A model generated the notes under the pieces. The model saw nothing but the letters and a program-made list of their open reading frames with translations. It ran no database searches and was not told the origin of the DNA. This document shows, piece by piece, positions 215 to 28,066 of a stretch of 36,089 bases of DNA. The position numbers were made by a program, and so were the translations under genes. The stretch comes from Sphingobacteriales bacterium (GTDB taxonomy: Bacteria; Bacteroidota; Bacteroidia; Sphingobacteriales; Sphingobacteriaceae), in the NCBI GenBank assembly GCA_004293485.1, contig RDYW01000051.1, positions 1 to 36,089 of the forward strand, in the 5' to 3' direction. Each line of letters starts with the position of its first letter. Position 1 is the first letter of the stretch.

Positions 215-1645
215 TTAATACTTACTGTAAGCAGGTAGTTTTATAATAGGAAATGGATAATTTTCGCCAAGCCTTACGCCATATTTTAATAAATCGCTTT
301 CGCTTAAATGGTATAAGTCGTGTATTTTGTTGTGCGGTATTTTTTCTAATTGTGGTAGCCAATGTTTTACATATTCGGCCTTGGGGTCGTAATCTATAGC
401 TTGCTTTATGATGTTGAAATATCTATCCTCCCTAGGGTCGTTACCTACGCCAGCTATATAAGCCCAGTTTCCCCAATTGCTCGATGGGCTGTAATCTATA
501 AGTTTTTCTTCAAAATAGGCGGCCCCTAAAACCCAATTTACTTTTAAATCTTTAATTAAAAACGAAGCTACATTTTGGCGGCCACGGTTGCTCATAAAAC
601 CTGTTTGGTTAAGCTCAATCATATTGGCATCAATAAAGGGTATGCCTGTTTGCCCTTTTTTCCAAAGCGCAAATAATTCTAGTTGGTTAGGGGCAAGGTC
701 ATGAGTTTTGTTTTTAAAGCCAGTTTCTAAAAAATATTTGGTTCCATGTTTTTTAAACATAAACCTAAAATAATCACGCCATAGCAATTCAAAAATAAGC
801 CAGTAAGTACTTTCATTTGCACCTCGTTCGCTTTCGTAAGTTTTAATTTGCCAGTATATACTCCGTGGCGATAAACAACCAGCTGCTAGCCAAGGCGATA
901 GTTTCGACGAATAATCCATCCCTAGCAAGCCATTGCGGGTAAGTTTATATTTTTTTAACAGGTCGGTATCCCATAAATAATATTTTAACCGTTTTAAGCC
1001 CTCGCTTTCGCCACCTATAAAATTTGCATCAGCTATATCATCAGCGCAAGCTATAAAACCCAAACTAGCCAACAAGGGTAGGGTAGATGTTTCTAAATTA
1101 TGGGCTATATTTATTTTGGTAGGTGATTTAAAACAAGGCCTAACGGTACTTTCACGTTCTACTTTTTTGCGGAATGTGGTAAAAATATCGGGAATATCTT
1201 TTATCGGGAAGGGTAAATCTTCTTTATGATAAAAAGTATGGCCTATAAAATGTTTAAGGTTTATTTTTAATTTCCAAAGCGCATCCTCTACCAGCGTTGA
1301 TATTTCGGTTTCTTCCGATGCTACCTCGCGATGGTGGTAAACCACATCGGCATTATATTTTTGGGCAATTTGGGGTATAATTTCTTCGGGCTTACCTACA
1401 AGCACTAACAAATCGCCCCCTAATTTTTGCAAAGTATTTTTTAAATCGGCAACACTATCTAATATAAACTGTGCCCTTAAATGCCCAGTTTTTAAGGTGT
1501 TATAAGTTGTAGTTTGATAGTAGCGTGGGTCGAAAACATATACAGGGATAATGCTTGAGGCTTTTTCGCAAGCTTCTAATAAAATTTCGTTATCCTCGGT
1601 TCGTAAGTCGTTTCTAAACCAAACTAGAATATTTTTTTCACTCAT
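215..1645 (-). CDS. DASH-family cryptochrome / deoxyribodipyrimidine photolyase
   Basis: A 476-residue flavoprotein of the photolyase/cryptochrome family. The N-terminal alpha/beta antenna-binding domain opens with LVWFRNDLRTEDNE. The C-terminal FAD-binding helical domain carries the DASH signatures ELLWRDYFRFM, FMSNRGRQNVASF and SSNWGNWAYIAGVGNDPRED, followed by YFNIIKQA. DASH proteins repair cyclobutane dimers, mainly in single-stranded or looped DNA, and may also signal; the fold binds FAD and usually a folate or other antenna. Length is normal for the family. The ATG at 1645 is the only sensible start, directly before the conserved LVWFRNDLR. It lies 47 nt downstream of the DUF2256 gene on the same strand and is probably co-transcribed with it. 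Across the divergent region are pterin genes, which may serve its antenna or cofactor; that link is inference. The family is near certain, the exact repair or signalling role is not. Confidence 0.95.
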   Translation of the reverse strand: MSEKNILVWFRNDLRTEDNEILLEACEKASSIIPVYVFDPRYYQTTTYNTLKTGHLRAQFILDSVADLKNTLQKLGGDLLVLVGKPEEIIPQIAQKYNADVVYHHREVASEETEISTLVEDALWKLKINLKHFIGHTFYHKEDLPFPIKDIPDIFTTFRKKVERESTVRPCFKSPTKINIAHNLETSTLPLLASLGFIACADDIADANFIGGESEGLKRLKYYLWDTDLLKKYKLTRNGLLGMDYSSKLSPWLAAGCLSPRSIYWQIKTYESERGANESTYWLIFELLWRDYFRFMFKKHGTKYFLETGFKNKTHDLAPNQLELFALWKKGQTGIPFIDANMIELNQTGFMSNRGRQNVASFLIKDLKVNWVLGAAYFEEKLIDYSPSSNWGNWAYIAGVGNDPREDRYFNIIKQAIDYDPKAEYVKHWLPQLEKIPHNKIHDLYHLSESDLLKYGVRLGENYPFPIIKLPAYSKY

Positions 1646-1692
1646 AATTTATCAAATCTGTAATTTTAATTTCGTTTTAAACGATGTTTTTT

Positions 1693-1848
1693 CTAATTTT
1701 TTATTTTTCGGCATTTATTTGAACAAAATTTTACGTCATCCCAACATTTATCCCATTTTTTACGCCATGTAAAAGCCTTTTTACAATGCAAACAAATTTT
1801 GGAAGGTAAATTATTTTTTAAAATAGTTTTGCCTAATTTATTCCTCAC
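1693..1848 (-). CDS. DUF2256 family small zinc-ribbon-like protein
   Basis: A 51-residue protein found by reading the gap upstream of the photolyase on the minus strand. It contains KICLHCKKAFTWRKKW, then DKCWDDVKFCSNKC, with two CxxC/CxxxC pairs and the TWRKKW core typical of DUF2256, which presumably binds one zinc. No ATG is available in frame. GTG at 1848 is the only usual start codon that leaves the normal short N-terminal arm; the frame is open to about 1899. Function is unknown. From what I know of the family, DUF2256 genes commonly sit beside cryptochrome/photolyase genes, and here the stop codon is 47 nt before the photolyase start. Small size and GTG start make it easy to miss. Confidence 0.82.
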   Translation of the reverse strand: MRNKLGKTILKNNLPSKICLHCKKAFTWRKKWDKCWDDVKFCSNKCRKIKN

Positions 1849-1853
1849 TTTAG

Positions 1854-1883
1854 TTAAACAAAATTGAATTAAGCATTGTTTAA
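1854..1883. promoter_or_regulatory. 30-bp inverted repeat in the photolyase/pterin divergent region, candidate operator
   Basis: TTAAACA (1854-1860) and its exact reverse complement TGTTTAA (1877-1883) are separated by 16 nt; pairing extends one base inward to 8 bp. The site fills almost the whole 41-nt gap between the GTG of the DUF2256 gene and the ATG at 1890. A near match with the same spacing lies before the CarH-like regulator gene (28037-28066). Regulator binding is inferred, not shown. Confidence 0.35.
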
Positions 1884-1889
1884 AACTTA

Positions 1890-2177
1890 ATGAACAAAAT
1901 TATTAAACAATTTAACGAAAAAGAAATTGATAGAATAATTGAAATGGCTTGGGAAGATCGTACACCTTTTGAAGCTATTAAATATCAATTTAACCTAAAC
2001 GAAGCTAATGTAATTGCATTAATGCGTCATAAATTAAAGCCTAGTAGTTGGCGATTGTGGCGTGAAAGAGTGCACCAAACTTCATTAAAGCATTTAAAAA
2101 AACGAAGTTTGCAGGTGAATAGGTTTAAATGCAACTTGCAACGCAGTATAAGCTTTAACAAAATTAGCAAACGATGA
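1890..2177 (+). CDS. TIGR03643 family protein (photolyase-associated small protein)
   Basis: A 95-residue protein. Residues about 10-60 carry the family core: IDRIIEMAWEDRTPFEAI, then a helix-turn-helix-like stretch (FNLNEANVIALMRHKLKPSS) and WRLWRERV. The C-terminal 30 residues are very basic and extend beyond the roughly 70 residues usual for the family. The function is unknown. The pattern of acidic N-terminal helix, helix-turn-helix-like middle and basic tail would fit nucleic-acid binding, but that is inference. From family knowledge, members recur next to cryptochrome/photolyase and DUF2256 genes, as here. The ATG at 1890 is chosen because the EIDRIIEMAW core needs a short N-terminal arm; the leader must be very short because the palindrome at 1854-1883 lies immediately upstream. 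Confidence 0.8.
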   Translation: MNKIIKQFNEKEIDRIIEMAWEDRTPFEAIKYQFNLNEANVIALMRHKLKPSSWRLWRERVHQTSLKHLKKRSLQVNRFKCNLQRSISFNKISKR

Positions 2178-2184
2178 TAAAAAA

Positions 2185-2214
2185 TGTTTAACTTTTTTTA
2201 ATAAAAATTAAACA
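2185..2214. promoter_or_regulatory. second 23-bp-period TGTTTAA/TTAAACA pair, before the pterin operon
   Basis: TGTTTAA (2185-2191) and TTAAACA (2208-2214) are separated by 16 nt, the same spacing as at 1854-1883 but with half-sites in opposite order. A further GTTTAAACA lies at 2232-2240, directly before the PTPS start codon. Possibly an operator for the 2243-5313 gene run; the region is AT-rich, so chance is not excluded. Confidence 0.25.
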
Positions 2215-2242
2215 AAATAAATATTTTTGAGTTTAAACATAT

Positions 2243-2656
2243 ATGCAAAAAAAAGTAGCCGTTTTTAGAAAAGAACATTTTAACGCAGCCCACCGTTTAA
2301 ATACGCCAACGTGGAGCGACGAAAAAAATAAACAAATTTATGGCAAGTGTAACAATGCTAATTACCATGGCCATAATTACGAGTTAATTGTAAAAGTTAC
2401 GGGTGTACCCGATGCCACTACGGGTTATGTAATGGATATGAAAGTTTTATCAGATTTAATAACTAATAAAGTTACTAACCGTTTCGACCATAAAAACTTA
2501 AACTTAGATACCGAGGAGTTTAAAACCTTAAACCCCAGTGCCGAAAACATTGCCATTGTAATACACAATTTATTAAGACCTGAAATTGACCAAAACCTGG
2601 AACTGAAAGTTATTTTATATGAAACCGAACGAAACTTTGTTGAATACCCTGCCTAA
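2243..2656 (+). CDS. 6-pyruvoyl-tetrahydropterin synthase (PTPS-type, QueD superfamily)
   Basis: A 137-residue T-fold enzyme. Zinc ligands are H17, H42 and H44; the catalytic cysteine is C36 in GKCNNANYHGHNY; D82-H83 stand in FDHKNL; E127 in YETER would anchor the pterin. The Cys-to-HGH spacing is C-x5-HGH, as in animal and biopterin-pathway PTPS, whereas QueD has C-x3-HGH. From memory of rat PTPS (C42, D88, H89, E133), all four residues line up at a constant offset of six. The expected reaction is dihydroneopterin triphosphate to 6-pyruvoyl-tetrahydropterin. The next gene, FolE, makes that substrate and its start overlaps this gene by 38 nt, so the two are probably translationally coupled. 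No queC/queE genes lie near, which argues against queuosine. A 6-carboxytetrahydropterin synthase activity remains possible. Confidence 0.88.
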   Translation: MQKKVAVFRKEHFNAAHRLNTPTWSDEKNKQIYGKCNNANYHGHNYELIVKVTGVPDATTGYVMDMKVLSDLITNKVTNRFDHKNLNLDTEEFKTLNPSAENIAIVIHNLLRPEIDQNLELKVILYETERNFVEYPA

Positions 2657-3317
2657 CCAAAATACCGTGTATGAGCTTTTGATTGACAATATGGGCGATA
2701 ACCACGTAGCTACATCATACGATACACCGTTACGAGAAGATGCTTTTGAACTTGATGATGCCCTTAAAATTGAAATGATTGAAAAACATTTCAAAAGTAT
2801 TATGGAAATTTTAGGTTTAGATTTAACCGACGATAGCTTGCGTGGTACGCCCAAGCGTGTTGCAAAAATGTATGTGAAAGAAATTTTTAGTGGCTTAAAC
2901 CCTGCTAATAAACCCGAAGCCAAACTGTTTGATAATAAATACCAATATAACCAAATGTTGGTCGAAAAAAATATTACCCTTTACAGCAATTGCGAGCATC
3001 ATTTTGTACCCATAATAGGCAAAGCACATATTGCATATATTAGCAATGGTAAGGTAATTGGCTTATCAAAATTAAATAGAATTGTACAATATTACGCCAA
3101 GCGGCCACAAGTGCAAGAGCGTTTAACCATGCAAATAGCCAACGAACTAAAAAGCATTTTACAAACCGAAGATGTGGCAGTAGTAATTGATGCAACACAT
3201 TTATGTGTATCGTCTCGTGGGATAAAAGATATACAAAGCAGTACCATAACTGCCGAGTATGGTGGTAAATTTTTGGACGACCAAACCAGAAATGAGTTTT
3301 TAAAATTTATTAGTTAA
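2619..3317 (+). CDS. folE: GTP cyclohydrolase I
   Basis: A 232-residue FolE (type I). It converts GTP to 7,8-dihydroneopterin triphosphate, the entry step to folate and biopterin-type pterins. The zinc ligands are C125 and H128 (in NCEHH) and C196 (in HLCVSSRG). Other family blocks are DDSLRGTPKRVAKMY, GLSKLNRIVQYYAKRPQVQE and the C-terminal TITAEYGGKF. The start at 2619 lies inside the PTPS gene (38-nt overlap). The internal ATG at 2691, giving MGDNHVATS, is also plausible because MGDNH often lies near the N-terminus in Bacteroidota FolE. The SDR gene follows after only 5 nt. Position between PTPS and SDR suggests a dedicated pterin copy rather than the general folate gene; whether another folE exists elsewhere cannot be seen here. 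Confidence 0.95.
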   Translation: MKPNETLLNTLPNQNTVYELLIDNMGDNHVATSYDTPLREDAFELDDALKIEMIEKHFKSIMEILGLDLTDDSLRGTPKRVAKMYVKEIFSGLNPANKPEAKLFDNKYQYNQMLVEKNITLYSNCEHHFVPIIGKAHIAYISNGKVIGLSKLNRIVQYYAKRPQVQERLTMQIANELKSILQTEDVAVVIDATHLCVSSRGIKDIQSSTITAEYGGKFLDDQTRNEFLKFIS

Positions 3318-3322
3318 AAATT

Positions 3323-4021
3323 ATGAATTATTTAATTATTGGTGGGAGTTCGGGTATTGGCTTACAATTGGTAAAAAACTTATTAAGCCAAGGCCATACG
3401 GTTTATGCGGCTTCACGCCAAAAAAAAGAGTTACCCACCGAAGCAAATTTTATTGAATTAGATGTTTTGGGCGATGTTTCGGTATTAAAAACCCAACTGC
3501 CCGATGAGTTACACGGCCTAGCTTACTGCCCTGGAACTATAAATTTAAAACCATTTGGCAGGCTAACTGAAGATGATTTTTTAAACGACTACAAAACCAA
3601 TGTTATAGGCGCAGTAAAAGTTATACAGCAAGTTATCAACAAGTTAAAAACTGTAAATACATCGTCGATAGTACTGTTTAGTACCGTTGCGGCTAAAACA
3701 GGTATGGGTTTTCACGCATCGGTGGCAGCATCAAAAAGTGCTTTAGAGGGTTTGGTGATTTCGCTTGCGGCGGAGTTTGCAGCAAATAAAATCCGTGTAA
3801 ACGTAATTGCCCCATCGCTTACCAATACCCCATTAGCGGCCAACTTATTATCGAGTCCCGAGCGCATTGAGGCATCAGATAAGCGACATCCGCTAGGTAG
3901 AATTGGTACAGCAAACGAAGTTGCCGATGCCGCCGAGTTTTTATTAAGCGATAAAAGTAGCTGGATAACTGGCCAAGTTTTAGGTATTGATGGTGGGATG
4001 TCGAGTTTAAGAACTTTTTAA
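3323..4021 (+). CDS. SDR-family oxidoreductase-like protein with altered active site
   Basis: A 232-residue Rossmann-fold protein of the short-chain dehydrogenase family. It has the nucleotide-binding loop GGSSGIG (7-13), the NVIGAV helix (N93), the PS-NTP region and a C-terminal GIDGG. The usual Ser and Tyr of the catalytic tetrad are missing. In STVAAKTGMGFHASVAASK the position 13 before the tyrosine site is T121, the tyrosine site is V134, and only N93 and K138 remain; H131 lies nearby. It is packed between folE (5 nt) and the flavin reductase (3 nt), so it is surely in the operon. With FolE and PTPS, sepiapterin-reductase-like reduction of a pterin is the obvious guess. The missing catalytic residues argue for a changed mechanism or a binding or regulatory role. 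SDR genes of this general look are known to me from photolyase/folE light clusters. Confidence 0.85.
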   Translation: MNYLIIGGSSGIGLQLVKNLLSQGHTVYAASRQKKELPTEANFIELDVLGDVSVLKTQLPDELHGLAYCPGTINLKPFGRLTEDDFLNDYKTNVIGAVKVIQQVINKLKTVNTSSIVLFSTVAAKTGMGFHASVAASKSALEGLVISLAAEFAANKIRVNVIAPSLTNTPLAANLLSSPERIEASDKRHPLGRIGTANEVADAAEFLLSDKSSWITGQVLGIDGGMSSLRTF

Positions 4022-4024
4022 ATA

Positions 4025-4663
4025 ATGATACTATCCTCAACCGATATTTTAGCCATGGAGCAACGCTACCGAGCTACTTTTATGAACAGTATTTCGGGCT
4101 TTAAAAGCCTGCAAATGGTAGGTACAATTAGCACAAGCGGGCAAACCAATATTGCGCTCTTTAATTCTATATTCCATATCGGGGCAAACCCACCCTTAAT
4201 TGGTATGATATGTAGGCCCGATGGCGACCAGCATTCTACCTTTGATAATATCGAAAAAACAGGATTTTATACCTTAAATAATGTACAGCAAAACTGGTAC
4301 AAACAAGCACACCAAACTAGTGCAAGGTATGATTTAAACCAATCGGAATTTGAAACTTGTGGGTTTAATGAACAATATTTGCCCGATTTTAAAGCTCCAT
4401 TTGTACAACAAGCCAGCGTTAAATTGGGCTTACAATTACGCGAAATAAATGTTATTAAATTTAATGGCTCCCGAATTATAATAGGCGAAGTAAAACACAT
4501 AATTTTAGATAATGGTTTGGTTGCTACCGATGGCTTTGTAGATTTAGAAAAAGCACAATCAGTAACAGTTGCGGGCTTAGATAGCTACCACAGTACCCAA
4601 AAATTGGCTCGTTTAAAATATGCTAAACCCGAAAACCAAGTAGAAGAACTAATTGTTGATTAA
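4025..4663 (+). CDS. flavin reductase family protein (FMN-binding split barrel)
   Basis: A 212-residue protein of the flavin-reductase-like split-barrel family. Typical blocks are the N-terminal FMN-binding strand region GTISTSGQTNIALFNSIFHI, then PPLIGMICRP and FDNIEKTGFYTLNNV, and later GEVKHIILD. Members bind FMN and use NAD(P)H to reduce flavin or act as flavin-dependent oxidoreductases; the substrate cannot be told. The start ATG lies 3 nt after the SDR stop, and the TetR-like gene begins 14 nt after the stop codon. The neighbourhood contains a flavoprotein photoreceptor/photolyase and pterin synthesis, so supplying reduced flavin or working with a pterin are both reasonable, but this is inference. 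Confidence 0.85.
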   Translation: MILSSTDILAMEQRYRATFMNSISGFKSLQMVGTISTSGQTNIALFNSIFHIGANPPLIGMICRPDGDQHSTFDNIEKTGFYTLNNVQQNWYKQAHQTSARYDLNQSEFETCGFNEQYLPDFKAPFVQQASVKLGLQLREINVIKFNGSRIIIGEVKHIILDNGLVATDGFVDLEKAQSVTVAGLDSYHSTQKLARLKYAKPENQVEELIVD

Positions 4664-4677
4664 ATATATATAGGTTT

Positions 4678-5313
4678 ATGGAAACTAAAGAAATAATACA
4701 AAACGCTTACATTGATTATGTGTTAACGCATAATAAAAAACCAGCATCGGTTTATGTTTTTGCCAAAGATAATGCCATGTCAGAAGACGATTTTTATAAA
4801 TACTATGGCAATTTTGATGGTATTGAAACCGATATTTGGACTAATTTTTTTGAAAAAACCATTACTGAAATTAAGCTACAAGAAGTATGGCAAAATTATA
4901 GTGCCCGAGAAAAAGCATTATCATTTTTTTACAGTTTTTTTGAGTTACTAAAAACCAAAAGAAGTTTTGTAGTTTATAGTATGCAAAATTTTGGCAAAAG
5001 CCCATTAACCCCACAAGTTTTAAAACAAGCAAAACAACTATTTGAAACCCTAAGCATACAAATTATACAAGAAGGTTTAGAAAGTAACGAACTTGCCGAG
5101 CGTAAGTTTTTTAGCGATAAATATAAAAATGCGCTTTGGTTACAGTTAATGTTTGTTTTAAAATTTTGGCAAAAAGATAGTTCGGCAGGTTTCGAAAAAA
5201 CCGATGAAGCCATTGAAAAAGGTGTAAATGTAACTTTTGATTTGTTTCAGCGTAGCCCCATTGATAACTTATTTGATTACGGTAAATTTTTAACACAAAA
5301 TGCCTTTAAATAA
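4678..5313 (+). CDS. TetR-like transcriptional regulator
   Basis: A 211-residue, mostly helical protein. The first 50 residues follow the TetR helix-turn-helix plan: IIQNAYIDYVL, then VYVFAKDNAMSEDDFYKYYG, followed by a helix with an IW motif. The usual glycine of the first turn is absent, so the DNA-binding domain is divergent. The rest matches the C-terminal ligand-binding domain seen in Bacteroidota TetR proteins placed next to ABC1 kinases. The gene starts 14 nt after the flavin reductase and is probably the last gene of the operon. It may control the cluster through a small ligand. I am sure of the family at the superfamily level only. Confidence 0.72.
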   Translation: METKEIIQNAYIDYVLTHNKKPASVYVFAKDNAMSEDDFYKYYGNFDGIETDIWTNFFEKTITEIKLQEVWQNYSAREKALSFFYSFFELLKTKRSFVVYSMQNFGKSPLTPQVLKQAKQLFETLSIQIIQEGLESNELAERKFFSDKYKNALWLQLMFVLKFWQKDSSAGFEKTDEAIEKGVNVTFDLFQRSPIDNLFDYGKFLTQNAFK

Positions 5314-5322
5314 CAGATTTTT

Positions 5323-5365
5323 TTCGGGCTTTCGGGCAACGGGCTTCGGGCAACGGGCTTCGGGC
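5323..5365 (+). repeat. TTCGGGC/AACGGGC heptad tandem array
   Basis: Six GGGC-ending heptads in a row: TTCGGGC, an extra T, TTCGGGC, AACGGGC, TTCGGGC, AACGGGC, TTCGGGC. It begins 10 nt after the TetR stop codon and is markedly G-rich for this AT-rich region. The first 22 bases recur exactly at 22266-22287. Noncoding; role unknown. Confidence 0.7.
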
Positions 5366-5446
5366 TTTAGTTTGTATAAATTAAAAATATTACGAAATAA
5401 ATTATTTTTAAAATCAAAAAACTAACTACTACTCACTAACTATAAA

Positions 5447-6760
5447 ATGAACGAATTAAACAATATGCCCACCAGTAAAGTAGCCCGTTCGGCGAAGTTT
5501 GTAGGTACAGGTTTTAAAATTGGGGGCAACTATATTAAGCACTATTCAAAAAAAATATTTAACCCCGAACTTAGCAAAGATGAGTTAAATGAAGATAATG
5601 CAACAGATATTTACGCATCGTTAAGTGAATTAAAAGGCAGCGCATTAAAGGTAGCGCAAATGTTGAGTATGGATAAAAACATATTGCCAAAAGCCTACGT
5701 TGATAAATTTTCGCTATCGCAATACAACGCACCACCGCTAAGTGGCCCATTAATTGCTCAAACATTTCGTAAACATTTTGGTAAAAACCCCGAACAAATA
5801 TTTGATAAATTTAACCTAAAATCAAGCAATGCAGCATCGATAGGGCAGGTGCACCAAGCCGAGCTGGGTGGTAAAAAACTGGCGGTAAAAATACAATACC
5901 CAGGTGTGGGTGCTTCAATCTCATCAGATTTAAAACTCATAAAACCCTTTGCTTTTAGGCTATTGGGTATGAGCGAGAAAGAACTAGACGTATATATGCG
6001 TGAGGTAGAGGAACGATTGGTTGAAGAAACCGATTATGAGTTAGAAGTAAAACGTTCGATACAATTTTCGAATGCTTGTGCAGGGTTAGATAACTTGGTT
6101 TTTCCACAATACTACCCCGAATTATCGGGCAGTAGAATTATTACCATGGGCTGGATTGAAGGAATGCACTTGAAAGAATTTTTAGCTACCAACCCAACGC
6201 AAAAATTACGTAATACCATTGGCCAAGCACTTTGGGATTTTTACAATTACCAGCAACACGAAATGCGGGCGGTACACGCTGACCCACACCCGGGCAATTT
6301 TTTAATTACCCCCGAAGGTAAATTGGCTGTGATAGATTTTGGCTGTATAAAAGAATTGCCCGACGATTTTTATTACCCTTTTTTTGCTACCACATCCGAA
6401 GCATTAATGGGAAATAGGGAAGAAACCATTAAAGCATTTAGGCAGTTAGAAATGATACAGCCTAAAGATAACGAAGCACAAATAGCGTTTTACTACCAAA
6501 ATTACAAAGAAATGATTTCGCTATTTGCCGAACCTTATGTTGAAAGCCAATTTGATTTTAGCCAAACCGCTTTTTTTGATAGCCTTTACGCTTTTGGCGA
6601 AAAAATTGCTAAAATGCCCGAGTTTAAACAGGCTAGGGGAGTAAAGCATTTTATTTATGTAAACCGTACCAATTTTGGCTTGTACAATATTTTACACGAA
6701 CTTAAAGCAACTATTAAAACCGATACTTATAAACCACATGTACAATTAGAGTTTGCGTAG
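5447..6760 (+). CDS. ABC1/AarF/UbiB-family atypical kinase
   Basis: A 437-residue protein of the ABC1 (ADCK/UbiB) protein-kinase-like family, whose members act in membrane lipid and isoprenoid-quinone metabolism, often as ATPases. The N-terminal KxGQ-type motif is GSALKVAQMLSM (68-71 KVAQ, with Ala for the usual Gly). The alanine-rich loop is NAASIGQVH (128-136), the ATP lysine is K148 in LAVKIQYPG, the catalytic loop is HADPHPGN (277-284) and the metal-binding motif is IDFG (296-299). All are intact, so nucleotide binding is likely. No clear membrane segment is seen. It lies 133 nt after the TetR-like gene, with the heptad repeat between. Such kinases recur with this TetR and SDR neighbourhood in Bacteroidota. 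The substrate is unknown. Confidence 0.88.
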   Translation: MNELNNMPTSKVARSAKFVGTGFKIGGNYIKHYSKKIFNPELSKDELNEDNATDIYASLSELKGSALKVAQMLSMDKNILPKAYVDKFSLSQYNAPPLSGPLIAQTFRKHFGKNPEQIFDKFNLKSSNAASIGQVHQAELGGKKLAVKIQYPGVGASISSDLKLIKPFAFRLLGMSEKELDVYMREVEERLVEETDYELEVKRSIQFSNACAGLDNLVFPQYYPELSGSRIITMGWIEGMHLKEFLATNPTQKLRNTIGQALWDFYNYQQHEMRAVHADPHPGNFLITPEGKLAVIDFGCIKELPDDFYYPFFATTSEALMGNREETIKAFRQLEMIQPKDNEAQIAFYYQNYKEMISLFAEPYVESQFDFSQTAFFDSLYAFGEKIAKMPEFKQARGVKHFIYVNRTNFGLYNILHELKATIKTDTYKPHVQLEFA

Positions 6761-6766
6761 ATAACA

Positions 6767-6790
6767 AAAAATCGGCTTTAAAAATCCGAT
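6767..6790 (-). terminator. terminator of the arginine-deiminase-like gene
   Basis: On the minus strand ATCGG and CCGAT form a 5-bp stem that spans the TAA stop codon and is followed by T6. The stem is short, so this is a weak call; it separates two convergent genes. Confidence 0.45.
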
Positions 6791-8217
6791 CTATACAACG
6801 GTAAACTCATACAATGAAACCCTCCACGGGCTCTCGATAATTCGGCCGATGGCATGGTAATAAATGTGTTTTCTAAAGTTTCGGGGTTTAGGGTACCAGT
6901 TTCAAATTTGTGTAACAAATTTTTTACGTTAATAATTGTAAAACCTTTGTTTTCAAATGCCTTAATAGTGTGTTCGTTTCTATCGTAACCTATCACTACA
7001 CCTTCTTTTAAAGCCAGTACGTTGCAACTATCTGTCCATTGTTCGCGTAAATCGTGTGGAAATTGTTGATTTCCAGAGTAAATAAATTCGGTTTTTTGGC
7101 TACTACCCAAATCGTTTTCGCTTACGTCGCATAATAAGGCTTCTACCGATTCAAACTTTTTTGTTGGTTGGTTAATGTCTGCAAAATACTGCGTTATTTC
7201 GGGTACATCGTATTTTTTTTGTTGCTCAAATGCTAAAAAAGGCGACGTATTGATAGGATAGTATTTGCCAATAGCATGTAATATTACCCACATATTTTTT
7301 TTAACTTGGGTAAAAACGGTATCAAGGTGCATGTAAGCCCGCTTATTGGGTATTTTTATTACCGATATTTTTTCAACCACTTTTTTTGCAAACAATATTT
7401 CGATAGTTTTTTTTGTGGCTAAGGCCGATGTTCGTTCGCTTAATCCTATGAGCAAATGGTTTTTACTCACCATCATTAAATCGCCGCACTCTATCGAACA
7501 GGGTTCTTCGGTATCGTGGTTAGTTTGTAAAAAATAGTGCATATTATCGGGTATTTCGATAATATTTTGCTTGTAATTAGTAAAATAAGGGTGGTTATAA
7601 AAAATATATTTAGCCAATAAAGTTTCGCGAGAGCGGGCTTTTTTTGCTGCTTTGTTTATTAAAATATGCTGGTTAATAACAATACCAATATCGCGGGTAA
7701 AAATTAAATTGGGTATAGGTGCAAATATCATTTCTTGATTTTTAAGCGTACCCGATATAAGTATTCGGGCCAGTTCGCCGGCTTCGGTTGCCAACAAAAC
7801 GCATTGCATTTGGTAACTTAAACCCTCGGTAGCACCTACGGCTGCAACAAGTTTTTGGCTTATGTTGCTATCTCTTAAAATATCCGACAACAAGTTTTGA
7901 AACTCAATAACACGGCCCGAGTTATGAAAATTAATATCATTAGGCTTAAAAAAACTACGGCTATCATCGTTATTTATTTCATTTAATTGTCCTTTTATTG
8001 TATCAATATCTAAAAAATAAAGCAACAATTTTATATAATAATCATATTCGCCTTTGCGTATGGTATCTAAATGTACAATATCTTCGAAAAGCCAATCTTG
8101 TGCCTTATCGGGTACTATTTTACCTAAGCCACCATCGGGGCTGTGTATAATTAGGCTGCGTAAAACACCAATTTCCGATGGTATATTTATCTTAAAATCC
8201 TTGTTGTTAACGTACAT
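6778..8217 (-). CDS. arginine-deiminase-like guanidino hydrolase
   Basis: A 479-residue member of the guanidine-modifying (penteine) superfamily, closest to arginine deiminase (arginine to citrulline plus ammonia). The N-terminal block EIGVLRSLIIHSPD is family-typical. Catalytic positions are visible: NLIFTRD (D176), IECGD (E243, D246), HLDTVF (H297, D299) and RGGFHCMSLPL with nucleophile C469. The usual EGGD motif reads ECGD here. It is longer than classical ArcA (about 410 residues), mainly through inserts between about 70 and 100 and between 300 and 400. No arcB or arcC lies nearby, so an arginine-fermentation operon is not indicated. Instead a CtlX-type hydrolase is divergent across a 560-nt gap, so the two may act in sequence on arginine and citrulline. 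Substrate is inferred from motifs only. Confidence 0.83.
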   Translation of the reverse strand: MYVNNKDFKINIPSEIGVLRSLIIHSPDGGLGKIVPDKAQDWLFEDIVHLDTIRKGEYDYYIKLLLYFLDIDTIKGQLNEINNDDSRSFFKPNDINFHNSGRVIEFQNLLSDILRDSNISQKLVAAVGATEGLSYQMQCVLLATEAGELARILISGTLKNQEMIFAPIPNLIFTRDIGIVINQHILINKAAKKARSRETLLAKYIFYNHPYFTNYKQNIIEIPDNMHYFLQTNHDTEEPCSIECGDLMMVSKNHLLIGLSERTSALATKKTIEILFAKKVVEKISVIKIPNKRAYMHLDTVFTQVKKNMWVILHAIGKYYPINTSPFLAFEQQKKYDVPEITQYFADINQPTKKFESVEALLCDVSENDLGSSQKTEFIYSGNQQFPHDLREQWTDSCNVLALKEGVVIGYDRNEHTIKAFENKGFTIINVKNLLHKFETGTLNPETLENTFITMPSAELSRARGGFHCMSLPLYRSDF

Positions 8218-8776
8218 AGTTTGCTTTTATAAAAAGGTAAAAATAATTTAAAACATGTAAACAAACAGCATGAATAAAAATTTGAAGCTATTAACCCAAA
8301 TCATAAAAAATCAAAAGCTTGTAAAACAGGTACTATACTTAAAATAGGAGTGCAAAAATAAGAATGGAAAATAAAATTATTGTTTTGAAAAGGTATTCGT
8401 TAGGCCATTAAAAAGCAAATAAAATCTACATTTTTATATGTTGTTGTTATCAACTGAGTTAGACTATTATTATTATTTTATCAAAATTTTACACATTTTT
8501 TTTGCGTTAACGATTGCAGCGGCATCCTTTTTTTTGCCAAAACTCACCCTTTGGGGGTTGGGGGGGCATAAAAACAAAAAAAGATACTTGCCTGCTGGCA
8601 AGCAGGTAGCGAAAAGCGTGTTACCTTGCCTACCGGCAGGCTGGAAACGCCCATATCAATCTTAAAATTTTATTTATTTAACGAACTAAGTTTTATTGGT
8701 TTATTTGCTTAAAAAAAGGTTTTGTTAATATTTTAATAAAAGATAACTAAACTTGCACAAAAGCAAAATAAAAAAA
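8218..8776. other. divergent intergenic region with repeat
   Basis: About 560 nt between the two guanidino-hydrolase genes. It contains the MITE-like repeat at 8504-8652 and otherwise AT-rich sequence that should hold both promoters. An open frame over the repeat (8438-8665) is judged spurious. I see no RNA gene. Confidence 0.6.
8504..8652 (-). repeat. full copy of MITE-like composite repeat
   Basis: Read on the minus strand it starts GGGCGTTTCC, carries a first palindromic block (8624-8644), then CCTGCTTGCCAGCAGGCAAG (8606-8587), a C/G-rich hairpin and AAAAAAAAGGATGCCGCTGC, and ends CGTTAACGC. About 30 nt around the central palindrome are identical to the copy at 24391-24504. The ends GGGCGTT and AACGC are imperfect inverted repeats. 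No coding capacity. Confidence 0.75.
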
Positions 8777-9682
8777 ATGTCTCATGTATTAATGATTAGG
8801 CCAGCAGCTTTTGGTTTTAATGTACAAACTGCTGATAACAACGCATTTCAAAACAAAAATGCGATACAAGATAATGTTCAACAAAATGCTTTGGTAGAGT
8901 TTGATAATTTTGTAGCCAAATTAAGGGCAGTTGATATAGATGTTATAGTAATTGAAGATAGTTTAAAACCACACACACCCGATGCTATTTTTCCTAATAA
9001 TTGGGTTTCGTTTCATGGTGATGGCTCGGTGTATGTGTACCCTATGCAAGCCCCAAACCGCAGGCTCGAAAGGCGAACCGATATAATAACCCAATTACAA
9101 AACCGCTTTATAGTTAATCAAATAAACGATTTAAGTAATTTCGAAAACCAAAACCAGTATTTAGAGGGTACAGGAAGCATGGTTTTAGATAGAACAAATA
9201 AGCTTGCTTATGCCTGCTTATCTGGCCGCACACATCCGCAGGTTTTAGAAATTTTTTGCGCCGAAAGTGGCTATCAAGCCATTACTTTTAATGCCGTTGA
9301 TGACCAAAATTTACCTATTTACCATACCAATGTATTAATGTGTGTAGCCGATAAGTTTGTAATTATTTGTTTAGATACAATAATCAGCGAAAGCGAAAAA
9401 AATAAACTTTTACAAAGTTTTAAAAATACACACAAAGAAATTATACCCATTTCGCTTGGGCAGATGAAGGATTTTGCAGGTAATATGCTAGAGATTAAGA
9501 ATAAACGAGGTGAAAATTATTTAATATTATCGCAAACAGCATTTAAAAGCCTTAGCAATAAGCAAATAGATAAAATAAGTACCTACGCTAAATTTTTATA
9601 TACCGATTTACATACTATTGAAGATAACGGCGGCGGAAGCGCAAGGTGTATGCTTGCTGAAGTGTGTTTACCGCTAAAATAA
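8777..9682 (+). CDS. ctlX: CtlX-type citrulline/arginine-utilising hydrolase
   Basis: A 301-residue protein of the guanidine-modifying superfamily, of the type annotated as citrulline utilization hydrolase CtlX. Conserved blocks are HVLMIRPAAFGFN at the start, DAIFPNNWVSFH, GTGSMVLDR, a histidine region YHTNVLM and a C-terminal GGGSARCMLAE holding the probable nucleophile cysteine. An upstream TTG at 8753 is in frame, but the ATG at 8777 is preferred because family members begin shortly before the LMIRP motif. It is divergent from the arginine-deiminase-like gene, which would supply citrulline; a two-step arginine route is a reasonable inference. The exact substrate and product are not settled by the sequence. 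Confidence 0.85.
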   Translation: MSHVLMIRPAAFGFNVQTADNNAFQNKNAIQDNVQQNALVEFDNFVAKLRAVDIDVIVIEDSLKPHTPDAIFPNNWVSFHGDGSVYVYPMQAPNRRLERRTDIITQLQNRFIVNQINDLSNFENQNQYLEGTGSMVLDRTNKLAYACLSGRTHPQVLEIFCAESGYQAITFNAVDDQNLPIYHTNVLMCVADKFVIICLDTIISESEKNKLLQSFKNTHKEIIPISLGQMKDFAGNMLEIKNKRGENYLILSQTAFKSLSNKQIDKISTYAKFLYTDLHTIEDNGGGSARCMLAEVCLPLK

Positions 9683-27119: not shown

Positions 27120-28007
27120 TTAATCGCAAACACGTTCGATACTTTGTTTAAACGAAAACATATTATTTATTACCGTTAAGTTGGGCTTATCGGGCAATTG
27201 TAGGTTATGTATAAGTGCCCCAGCAATAAGCAATTTTGTATTGCCCAAGCTTTCTAATATTTTATCAATTAAAGTTAAGGTATCCCAGTTGGGGTTATTT
27301 ACAGTAAGGGCCGTTAAGGCATAGTCGGGTTCAAAATAAGTAGTAGCTTGTTTAAGACTTTCGAAAGGTAAATTTTGCCCCAAATACAATACCTTGTGTC
27401 CGTTAAGTTTAAGTAAGTACTGGGTGTATAATAAACCTACTTGGTGGGTTTCGCTAGGAGGTAAAAAAAGCAAATATTTTTTTTGAAGTACGTTTTTTTT
27501 GTGTTTTAACAATGCATTTTCGGCTATCAAACGTTGTTCAATTTTATGTGTTGCAAAGTGTTCGTGGGCAATATTTATGGCACCTACTTGCCACATAAAG
27601 CCTACTTTTCGCATAAACGGAAAAATAATTGTTTCGATAGTTTGCTGCACTCCTAAAGTTAAAATGCAGTTTTCAAAAATTTCATCAAATTCGGTCTCAT
27701 CCATTTTTAACATCGCGTTTGATAAACTTTGTACCTGAACGTTTACGTTATAATGGTCGAGTTGTAAATTTTTTACAATCTCACACAATTCATTCGAGCT
27801 AAATTCGGCTATTTTACTTATTTTATATCCGTTTTCAATTAATGTCGAAATATTTAAAAATAAACACAAATCATTATCATCGTAATAGCGTATATTGGTA
27901 GGAGTACGCTTGGGGCTAATTATATTGTAGCGTTGTTCCCAAATACGAATTGAGTGAGCCTTTATACCTGTAAGGTTTTCGATATCGCTTATAGAGAAAG
28001 TTTTCAA
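27120..28007 (-). CDS. CarH/LitR-like MerR regulator with B12-binding photosensor domain
   Basis: A 295-residue regulator. Residues 1-70 are a MerR winged helix (FSISDIENLTGIKAHSIRIW, then YYDDNDL). Residues about 90-165 are the helical-bundle domain with the CarH signature W-x9-EH: W139, E149 and H150 in MWQVGAINIAHEH. Residues about 175-290 are a B12-binding Rossmann domain with the lower-ligand motif ETHQVG (E186, H188, G191). In CarH/LitR proteins adenosylcobalamin holds the repressor tetramer on DNA in the dark, and light breaks it. Every residue needed for light sensing that I can check is present. Such regulators control carotenoid, photolyase and folE genes in other bacteria; no carotenoid genes are in view, but the photolyase/pterin cluster is 20 kb away. 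It is divergent from tadA across 103 nt that holds a candidate operator. Confidence 0.88.
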   Translation of the reverse strand: MKTFSISDIENLTGIKAHSIRIWEQRYNIISPKRTPTNIRYYDDNDLCLFLNISTLIENGYKISKIAEFSSNELCEIVKNLQLDHYNVNVQVQSLSNAMLKMDETEFDEIFENCILTLGVQQTIETIIFPFMRKVGFMWQVGAINIAHEHFATHKIEQRLIAENALLKHKKNVLQKKYLLFLPPSETHQVGLLYTQYLLKLNGHKVLYLGQNLPFESLKQATTYFEPDYALTALTVNNPNWDTLTLIDKILESLGNTKLLIAGALIHNLQLPDKPNLTVINNMFSFKQSIERVCD

Positions 28008-28036: not shown

Positions 28037-28066
28037 TTTAACAGTATTATGTATAATTTTGTTTTA
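28037..28066. promoter_or_regulatory. candidate operator overlapping the tadA -7 box
   Basis: TTTAACA (28037-28043) and TGTTTTA (28060-28066) are separated by 16 nt. Each half differs by one base from the perfect inverted pair at 1854-1883, with identical spacing. A TAnnTTTG -7 box (TAATTTTG, 28054-28061) for tadA overlaps it. Autoregulation by the CarH-like protein is a reasonable guess; binding is not shown. Confidence 0.35.

Follow-up and report, generated by a model that had tools for sequence, protein, structure and literature searches.

Why should a photolyase gene be packed together with genes for pterin and flavin metabolism, and what switches such a set on? These questions are raised by a contig of a Sphingobacteriales bacterium (GenBank assembly GCA_004293485.1, contig RDYW01000051.1), the whole 36,089 nucleotides (nt) of which are referred to here as the window (contig C56 of a 2.2-Mb genome in 89 contigs, 95.5% complete). 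Nine genes at positions 215–6760 were described in an initial annotation as a possible light module with its own pterin pathway, serving a DASH-family photolyase. The first half of that proposal fares better than the second. The genes look like a light-response cluster whose GTP cyclohydrolase I (FolE) belongs to a distinct, light-associated lineage. They are best read as a Bacteroidota form of the light-stress regulons already known under LitR and RpoE, and pterin supply would be one of its arms. Specifically, we regard it as fairly probable that a CarH/LitR-like regulator controls photolyases plus light-linked pterin and flavin genes. The features on which the argument draws are the following:

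215..1645, minus strand: DASH-family cryptochrome/photolyase (TIGR02765, 560 bits; cut-off 317)
1693..1848, minus strand: DUF2256 small protein (PF10013, 69 bits)
1854..1883, no strand: putative operator, an inverted repeat in the divergent DUF2256/DUF2805 promoter region
1890..2177, plus strand: DUF2805/TIGR03643 small protein (PF10985, 117 bits)
2243..2656, plus strand: 6-pyruvoyl-tetrahydropterin synthase-like protein, PTPS (PF01242, 108 bits, above the Pfam cut-off)
2619..3317, plus strand: FolE of the separate light-type lineage (TIGR00063 and NF006824 above cut-off; tree; context)
3323..4021, plus strand: short-chain dehydrogenase/reductase (SDR)-fold protein (PF13561 and PF00106 above cut-off)
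4025..4663, plus strand: flavin-reductase-like split-barrel protein, FlvR (PF01613; 3fge_A, E 3e-62)
4678..5313, plus strand: TetR-type regulator (PF17931, TetR C-terminal domain, 150 bits)
5447..6760, plus strand: ABC1/UbiB-type atypical kinase (PF03109, 174 bits)
27120..28007, minus strand: CarH/LitR-like MerR plus B12-binding regulator (PF13411, PF02607; CarH 5c8d, E 2.4e-19)
28039..28064, minus strand: near-copy of the putative operator, AAACA-N16-TGTTA, upstream of the CarH-like gene

Each of the nine reading frames is open on the strand originally given, and family models back eight of the nine labels, the ninth gene being SDR-like by Pfam; the closest solved chain to the DASH protein is 6kii_A (E 8.6e-162). 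The divergent DUF2256 and DUF2805 genes are 41 nt apart, followed rightward by distances of 65 nt (DUF2805–PTPS), −38 nt (PTPS–FolE, an overlap), 5 nt (FolE–SDR), 3 nt (SDR–FlvR), 14 nt (FlvR–TetR) and 133 nt (TetR–ABC1), in agreement with the gaps of at most 14 nt, or overlaps, annotated from PTPS to TetR. The same 38-nt overlap is seen in a related locus (L045) and would fit translational coupling of PTPS and FolE.

Conservation and co-occurrence of the cluster genes

Among 60 related genomes searched, 27 have DUF2805, and its surroundings were read in 26 (own genome excluded), some ending at contig ends. The full order, DASH-DUF2256 facing DUF2805-PTPS-FolE-SDR-FlvR-TetR-ABC1, is kept in 10 of the 14 other same-genus genomes with DUF2805, counting L041, in which a contig end interrupts DASH; as for the remaining four, L051 is truncated behind FlvR by the end of its contig, and G003, G012 and G017 depart from the order. 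The full set is present in G008, G013 and G014, among others. In G012 and G017, the block from PTPS to ABC1 is separate from DASH, and this is probably also the case in G010, judged by matching flanking genes on a short contig. The three departing regions retain parts of the arrangement, namely only DASH-DUF2256 with the facing DUF2805 (L037, L042) or DUF2805-PTPS-FolE-SDR-TetR-ABC1 (L053). Just beyond DASH, a CarH-like gene and an iron-sulfur photolyase gene (PF04244) are present in 7 of 14 regions (L037, L042, L045, L046, L047, L050, L054). In the window's own genome, the iron-sulfur photolyase is on contig C72, near phytoene synthase and lycopene cyclase genes, and an additional photolyase is on contig C9.

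The gene set was found again in other families, in other orders. We inspected the best 80 of at least 580 named DUF2805 loci, several of which share a genus (four are Winogradskyella) and some of which end at contig ends, so that the counts are lower bounds: within the stretch, at least 38 have DUF2256, 31 an iron-sulfur photolyase, 24 an SDR, 22 a flavin reductase, 19 ABC1, 18 TetR, 17 DASH, 11 PTPS and 10 a light-type FolE. At the level of genera (43 in the 60 genomes), DUF2805 and DUF2256 occur together in 11, which are all of the DUF2256 genera, against 3.3 expected (p 1.4e-8), and DUF2805 and the iron-sulfur photolyase in 10 of 12 against 3.6 expected (p 8e-6). Light-type FolE is associated with DUF2805 (8 genera, p 0.009) and with the CarH-like gene (9 genera, p 0.016), and DUF2805 is unrelated to phenylalanine hydroxylase (4 genera, 5.1 expected). 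Co-occurrence is thus above chance, and the chance-level outcome named in the initial annotation as refuting did not arise.

Two further observations concern the photolyase genes. The DASH proteins of sister loci (L045, L046, L050) are about 30 residues shorter at the end (435–447 aa, compared with 476 aa in the window), and the family search of DASH in those genomes reads through a stop at that end. In another member of the genus (L171, G002:C1:2760034-2777894), a DASH-labelled photolyase gene faces PTPS with no FolE beside it; this genome gave no match to DUF2805, DUF2256 or CarH-like models.

A candidate operator and a CarH/LitR-like regulator

Within the 41 nt between the divergent genes lies an 8-bp inverted repeat without mismatches, TTAAACAA-N14-TTGTTTAA, with the core AAACA-N16-TGTTT at 1856–1881. 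Module genes have the pattern AAACA-N15/16-TGTTT in 41 of their 295 upstream regions, versus 12 of 1140 upstream regions of other genes, a comparison that is partly circular, the pattern having been derived from divergent regions, mostly in-genus, that are in part recounted; control spacings gave 1 to 5 matches in either set. When same-genus regions were excluded, and with them the DUF2256 sides of divergent pairs, the figures were 13 of 205 versus 9 of 1015, the 13 including two regions that had also served as sources of the pattern (L230, L259), some pairs that are two sides of one site, and two loci that look closely related (L225, L227). Over spacings of 4–30 outside the genus, a spacing of 15 stands out (12 vs. 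7), the next best light count being 4 vs. 4 at spacing 11. The repeat is present at DUF2805, DUF2256, photolyase and CarH-like promoters. In the window, it is the placement of the two sites, one in the cluster gap and one before the CarH-like gene, that is unusual, not their number.

The LitR-like regulator is encoded outside the cluster, 20 kb away from it, and is a different gene from the TetR-type regulator within it. It is orthologous to the CarH-like gene beside the cluster in relatives, with 78–84% identity to its counterparts in G004, G006 and G016 and 55–62% to those in other cluster-bearing members. The Trp-x9-Glu-His motif (WQVGAINIAHEH) and the cobalt-ligand His are conserved in 26 of 26 homologues (>200 aa; one shorter row dropped). 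Light probably activates the cluster by way of a vitamin B12-type sensor. The CarH-like protein is the putative binder of the repeat. The motif accompanies the CarH-like gene over 27 genomes (p 0.007), and MerR proteins generally use pseudopalindromes (PMC8156234). One arm, TAGTTAAACAA, fits the CarH 11-bp consensus nAnnTnnACAn by eye, in an inverted arrangement, no systematic direct-repeat search having been made.

A FolE lineage linked to light genes

The FolE proteins fall into 39 light-type and 34 usual-type rows, one side each of a branch with 100/100 support. Loci were gathered by family search alone, regardless of light genes, which gave 31 light-type loci in the 60 genomes (own included). 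A light or carotenoid gene (photolyase, CarH-like, DUF2256, DUF2805, crtB or crtI) lies within 8 kb of 18 of these 31 and of none of the 20 usual-type loci read (of 50 intact; one of the 20 stretches spans only 4.4 kb), a significant difference (p 1e-5). Adding the loci found via DUF2805 brings the counts to 25 of 38 and 1 of 21. PTPS is present at all 20 usual-type loci read. The FolE of the window matches its model above cut-off, and the residues Cys-Glu-His-His and a second Cys, which we take to be zinc ligands, align with the Escherichia coli enzyme.

The light-type FolE is not confined to one gene neighbourhood. Two stretches (L153 and L154, from G040 and G045) hold CarH-like, ECF (extracytoplasmic function) sigma, Idi, PTPS and light-type FolE genes, with crtI and crtB also in L153, and no DASH in either; four Winogradskyella loci have a light-type FolE and no PTPS in the stretch read. 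In W. aurantiaca IMCC20180 and W. vincentii 2Y89, a light-type FolE and DASH are both present, the stretch read having no PTPS. A second context was also noticed, with an ECF sigma factor and no photolyase nearby (L158, L162–L165 and L170, from G037, G028, G044, G029, G001 and G003), in which four of the six loci carry a small protein of about 128 aa.

Whether this lineage is reserved for a separate pathway was assessed in the 29 genomes that possess it. An intact usual-type FolE is also found in 20, a broken one in G014 and none in eight; all of the eight are at least 95% complete, and the seven outside the genus 98–100%. In those eight genomes the light-type enzyme must also make folate, unless another FolE was missed, since no other was found, and a sole FolE among light or carotenoid genes fits a general folate and pterin supply. 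The own genome's lack of a usual FolE is likely to be an assembly gap, since its close relative G016 has one at a contig edge. The broken copy in G014 (G014:C1:2996442-2996968) consists of two overlapping pieces, apparently through a broken frame, the cluster FolE of that genome being intact. The annotated idea of a dedicated pterin pathway is weakened: within the window's genus light-type FolE is mostly a second copy, but as the sole FolE in 8 of 29 genomes it can be described only as a separate, light-linked lineage, and we dropped the notion of a fully dedicated enzyme.

A similar reduction applies to the biopterin-type PTPS. By similarity the label holds, rat PTPS (1b66) being the closest among solved chains (E 5e-27), with Cys-x5-His-Gly-His, Asp-His and Tyr-Glu-Thr present and aligned with the rat enzyme. 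As a biopterin-specific criterion, the motif was rejected, since the other PTPS of the same genome shares Cys-x5-His-Gly-His and the motif is not diagnostic. The protein stays below the NCBIfam PTPS cut-offs (TIGR00039, 79.8 bits; cut-off 125.5).

An SDR without catalytic tyrosine and two small protein families

In the SDR of the window, the Tyr of YxxxK is replaced by Val, and a conserved His lies seven residues before the Lys. Ile or Val takes the place of Tyr in 38 of 44 distinct SDR rows, and Tyr is kept in six (L161, L217, L224, L276, L156 and a manually added SDR of Pseudoalteromonas). Of 216 NCBIfam matches to the window's SDR, none of the best 25 reaches its cut-off. Identification as sepiapterin reductase was considered and rejected, the catalytic Tyr being missing and none of the best 60 of 260 matched solved chains being so named; a plain sepiapterin-reductase step is hence not supported by the sequence. 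The protein may use another catalytic residue, or be no redox enzyme. A Tyr-bearing SDR can fill the same place, as in L161 (G027), where one adjoins light-type FolE, flavin reductase and CarH-like genes; the SDR beside a flavin reductase in Pseudoalteromonas is a different, Tyr-bearing SDR and was set aside. Tyr-less relatives also occur in the Alphaproteobacteria, where plasmids of Mesorhizobium terrae and Methylobacterium bullatum carry them close to an iron-sulfur photolyase gene or immediately adjacent to it (L322, 7953–8675, and L323, 7935–8711); L323 also has DUF2256, and L322, the Mesorhizobium locus, an ECF sigma/ChrR pair. For a Spirosoma plasmid SDR, no photolyase is annotated within the stretch.

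The Cys pairs of DUF2256 are conserved in a 12-row alignment (one row, L031, in the wrong frame), suggestive of zinc binding. The model of DUF2805 (pLDDT, a predicted confidence measure, 78.6) shows weak helix-turn-helix-like helices and a basic tail; as Foldseek returned no match with an E-value of 0.001 or lower and no VIA-align score exceeded Z 4.5 (GcrA), we claim no fold family for it. Our search of open-licence literature, in the portions of text available, found no functional study tying DUF2256 or TIGR03643/DUF2805 to photolyase, and the present data place these uncharacterised families firmly in a photolyase context.

Plasmid loci add to the picture of these families. On Acinetobacter schindleri plasmid p1AsACE (L319, 6001–7931), TIGR03643, DUF2256 and an iron-sulfur photolyase adjoin each other, with lipocalin, desaturase, FAD-oxidoreductase and DUF1365 genes in the vicinity, so that DUF2256 and TIGR03643 accompany photolyase in Gammaproteobacteria too. 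A Vibrio fortis plasmid (L318, 2222–7681) has a photolyase followed directly by a member of the flavin-reductase-like family, with TIGR03643 about 3 kb off. In the Pseudoalteromonas and Nostoc DUF2805 stretches, no photolyase is annotated within the stretch.

Proposed mechanism and alternative explanations

In the mechanism that we propose, the CarH/LitR-like B12 regulator would in the dark occupy the inverted repeats of the divergent promoter and of its own upstream region and repress both. Light would release it, allowing expression of a leftward DUF2256-DASH unit and a rightward DUF2805-PTPS-FolE-SDR-flavin reductase-TetR unit, perhaps with ABC1, these two units being deduced from spacing. 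UV-damaged DNA would then be repaired by DASH, together with the iron-sulfur photolyase and the further photolyase encoded on other contigs, and more reduced flavin and pterin would be supplied, the pterin via the light-linked FolE lineage. The flavin-reductase-like protein, close to 3fge, could keep the photolyase flavin reduced. FolE would commit GTP to pterins; with PTPS the flux could leave the folate route, and it need not do so in stretches without PTPS, such as those of Winogradskyella. In light-exposed cells, the pterin would most likely serve to enlarge the reduced-folate and pterin pool, as photolyase antenna, antioxidant or both. General supply is preferred over a DASH-specific cofactor because PTPS is not always present and the FolE is sometimes the sole one. 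A shielding role is possible; a review describes cyanobacterial pterins as apparently active in light protection (PMC13259868).

Several observations, the partial circularity of the operator counts among them, weigh against this mechanism. The published B12 motif, ExHx2G-x41-SxV/T-x22-27-GG, is incomplete in the regulator, in which ETHQVG is present, TAL at offset 40 stands for SxV/T and Gly-Ala for Gly-Gly, and for this reason the protein is named CarH/LitR-like only. At the position of Thermus CarH His132, 21 of the 26 homologues (own row counted) have Gln and one, L173, has His; His132 is described as important for light-induced disassembly of Thermus CarH (PMC10442372), so that its replacement may mean a different switching chemistry. 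Genome-wide, the loose pattern shows no enrichment (29+31 vs. 47+51 for the reversed control), its count in the 36-kb window is not unusual (3 matches, 2.2 expected), its link with the CarH-like gene is not significant outside the genus (p 0.49), and Thermus CarH binds direct repeats (PMC8156234). As regards FolE, the light context outside the own genus is reduced to 5 of 13 vs. 0 of 13 (p 0.04), and 13 of the 31 light-type loci have no nearby light or carotenoid gene, several having an ECF sigma gene instead. Moreover, the light-type enzyme is the sole FolE found in G000 (the own genome), G037, G040, G045, G046, G050, G052 and G057, and sole-FolE genomes account for four of the five light-linked loci found beyond the genus.

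The alternative that survives best is a general photo-oxidative or envelope stress response, exerted via TetR or an ECF sigma factor, with light as one cue among others; we consider it a possibility, albeit on balance an unlikely one. The travelling of TetR and ABC1 with the cluster (18 and 19 of the best 80 named DUF2805 loci), an ECF sigma gene within 8 kb at 10 of 38 light-type FolE loci and the RpoE control of Rhodobacter folE2 (PMC7074977) are in its favour. Against it stands the spacing-specific repeat at DUF2805, DUF2256, photolyase and CarH-like promoters, and the ECF model used matched none of the 26 DUF2805 regions of relatives.

It is doubtful, though conceivable, that light-type FolE, PTPS and the Tyr-less SDR make up a pterin branch of their own, induced by light and separate from both folate and tetrahydrobiopterin (BH4) of the animal type, with a product that serves photolyases or cryptochromes or shields the cell. 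Such a branch would hold at least for the window's genus, in which a second FolE is usual; if it existed, the Tyr-less SDR would be a new photolyase-linked enzyme or pterin-binding protein.

The more specific proposal of the initial annotation, that the operon supplies DASH with a dedicated, biopterin-like cofactor serving as its antenna or electron donor, now appears improbable. It draws on the 26 regions of relatives, 14 of which have DASH and 12 light-type FolE together with PTPS, on the similarity of PTPS to the rat enzyme and on the separateness of the FolE lineage. Against it, light-type FolE occurs without PTPS in Winogradskyella and without DASH in L153 and L154, the pterin block is detached from DASH in G012 and G017, and probably so in G010, the FolE is the only one in 8 of 29 genomes, and the SDR lacks the catalytic Tyr. 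DASH proteins bind methenyltetrahydrofolate, which also counts against a biopterin-like cofactor.

FolE, PTPS and an SDR are the gene set of animal BH4 synthesis, which raises the prospect of BH4 made for phenylalanine hydroxylase and encoded here by chance. A PF00351 match in 7 of the 16 genus members with the PTPS-FolE-SDR block agrees with this; nevertheless, there is none in the own genome or in the eight other block-bearing members, light-type FolE and PF00351 coincide in 5 genera against 5.1 expected, and the FolE is linked to light genes instead, making this explanation highly improbable. Retention of the neighbourhood by common descent only, with no shared function, is hardly tenable and in large part refuted, since much of the conservation lies within one genus but the families recur, reordered, in other families and phyla (L033, L039, L040, L240, L244) and on Acinetobacter, Vibrio, Mesorhizobium and Methylobacterium plasmids.

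Other features of the locus

No solved relative of the TetR-type regulator was found at E 0.1. Between TetR and ABC1, a short tandem repeat of cgggcttcgggcaa-like units was spotted by eye at 5320–5366. Beyond the cluster, at 6778–9682, two more genes resemble amidino-hydrolase (arginine deiminase/DDAH-like) proteins, by reading alone.

Comparison with known light-stress systems

The LitR-controlled clusters of Pseudomonas, to which the initial annotation had referred, comprise light-induced photolyase, cryptochrome CryB, SDR and FolE genes under LitR (PplR/PmlR), with a repressor site before the first gene (PMC9758184). The window shares with them a MerR-type regulator with a B12 domain and the combination of photolyase, cryptochrome, SDR and FolE. 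In Pseudomonas, however, FolE is accompanied by FolM and FolX, and here by PTPS; the Pseudomonas operator is TGTACA-N12-TGTACA, whereas the 41-nt gap has AAACA-N16-TGTTT (TGTACA was not searched for); and the furan fatty acid synthase gene of that regulon was not seen among the genes read here.

The CarH switch of Myxococcus, Thermus and Bacillus, which acts on carotenoid genes, shares the MerR plus B12-binding architecture, Trp-x9-Glu-His and the ligand His. It differs in that the repeats here are inverted rather than direct, SxV/T and GG are altered and His132 is replaced by Gln, and in that the presumed targets are photolyase and pterin genes.

FolE2 is a different enzyme family from FolE. 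A photolyase, a GTP cyclohydrolase and an SDR come together in the Rhodobacter RpoE-ChrR regulon as well, in which singlet oxygen induces photolyase and folE2, and SDR weakly (PMC7074977). In Mesorhizobium terrae, as noted above, one Tyr-less SDR relative is encoded close to an ECF sigma/ChrR pair. Control of the Rhodobacter regulon is by sigma and anti-sigma factors, and PTPS is not mentioned in the available text of PMC7074977. Within the Bacteroidota, photolyase and photolyase-related genes cluster in proteorhodopsin-bearing marine Flavobacteriia (PMC5932025), where the related genes are left unnamed in the available text and the words 'pterin' and 'cyclohydrolase' do not occur in the main text. 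Open-licence literature, by title or beginning of abstract, yielded no Bacteroidota cluster of photolyase, FolE and PTPS among the matches listed.

Light-induced FolE, photolyase and SDR genes are thus already known, and this version of the set, its likely control site and the Tyr-less SDR look new. Three regulons under different control, those of LitR in Pseudomonas, of RpoE-ChrR in Rhodobacter and probably of a CarH-like regulator here, contain a photolyase gene together with genes for a GTP cyclohydrolase and an SDR. The repeated pairing suggests a demand for extra pterin in bacteria exposed to light. In the Bacteroidota, the light-linked FolE lineage, the candidate operator and the atypical SDR are separate elements that can be removed singly.

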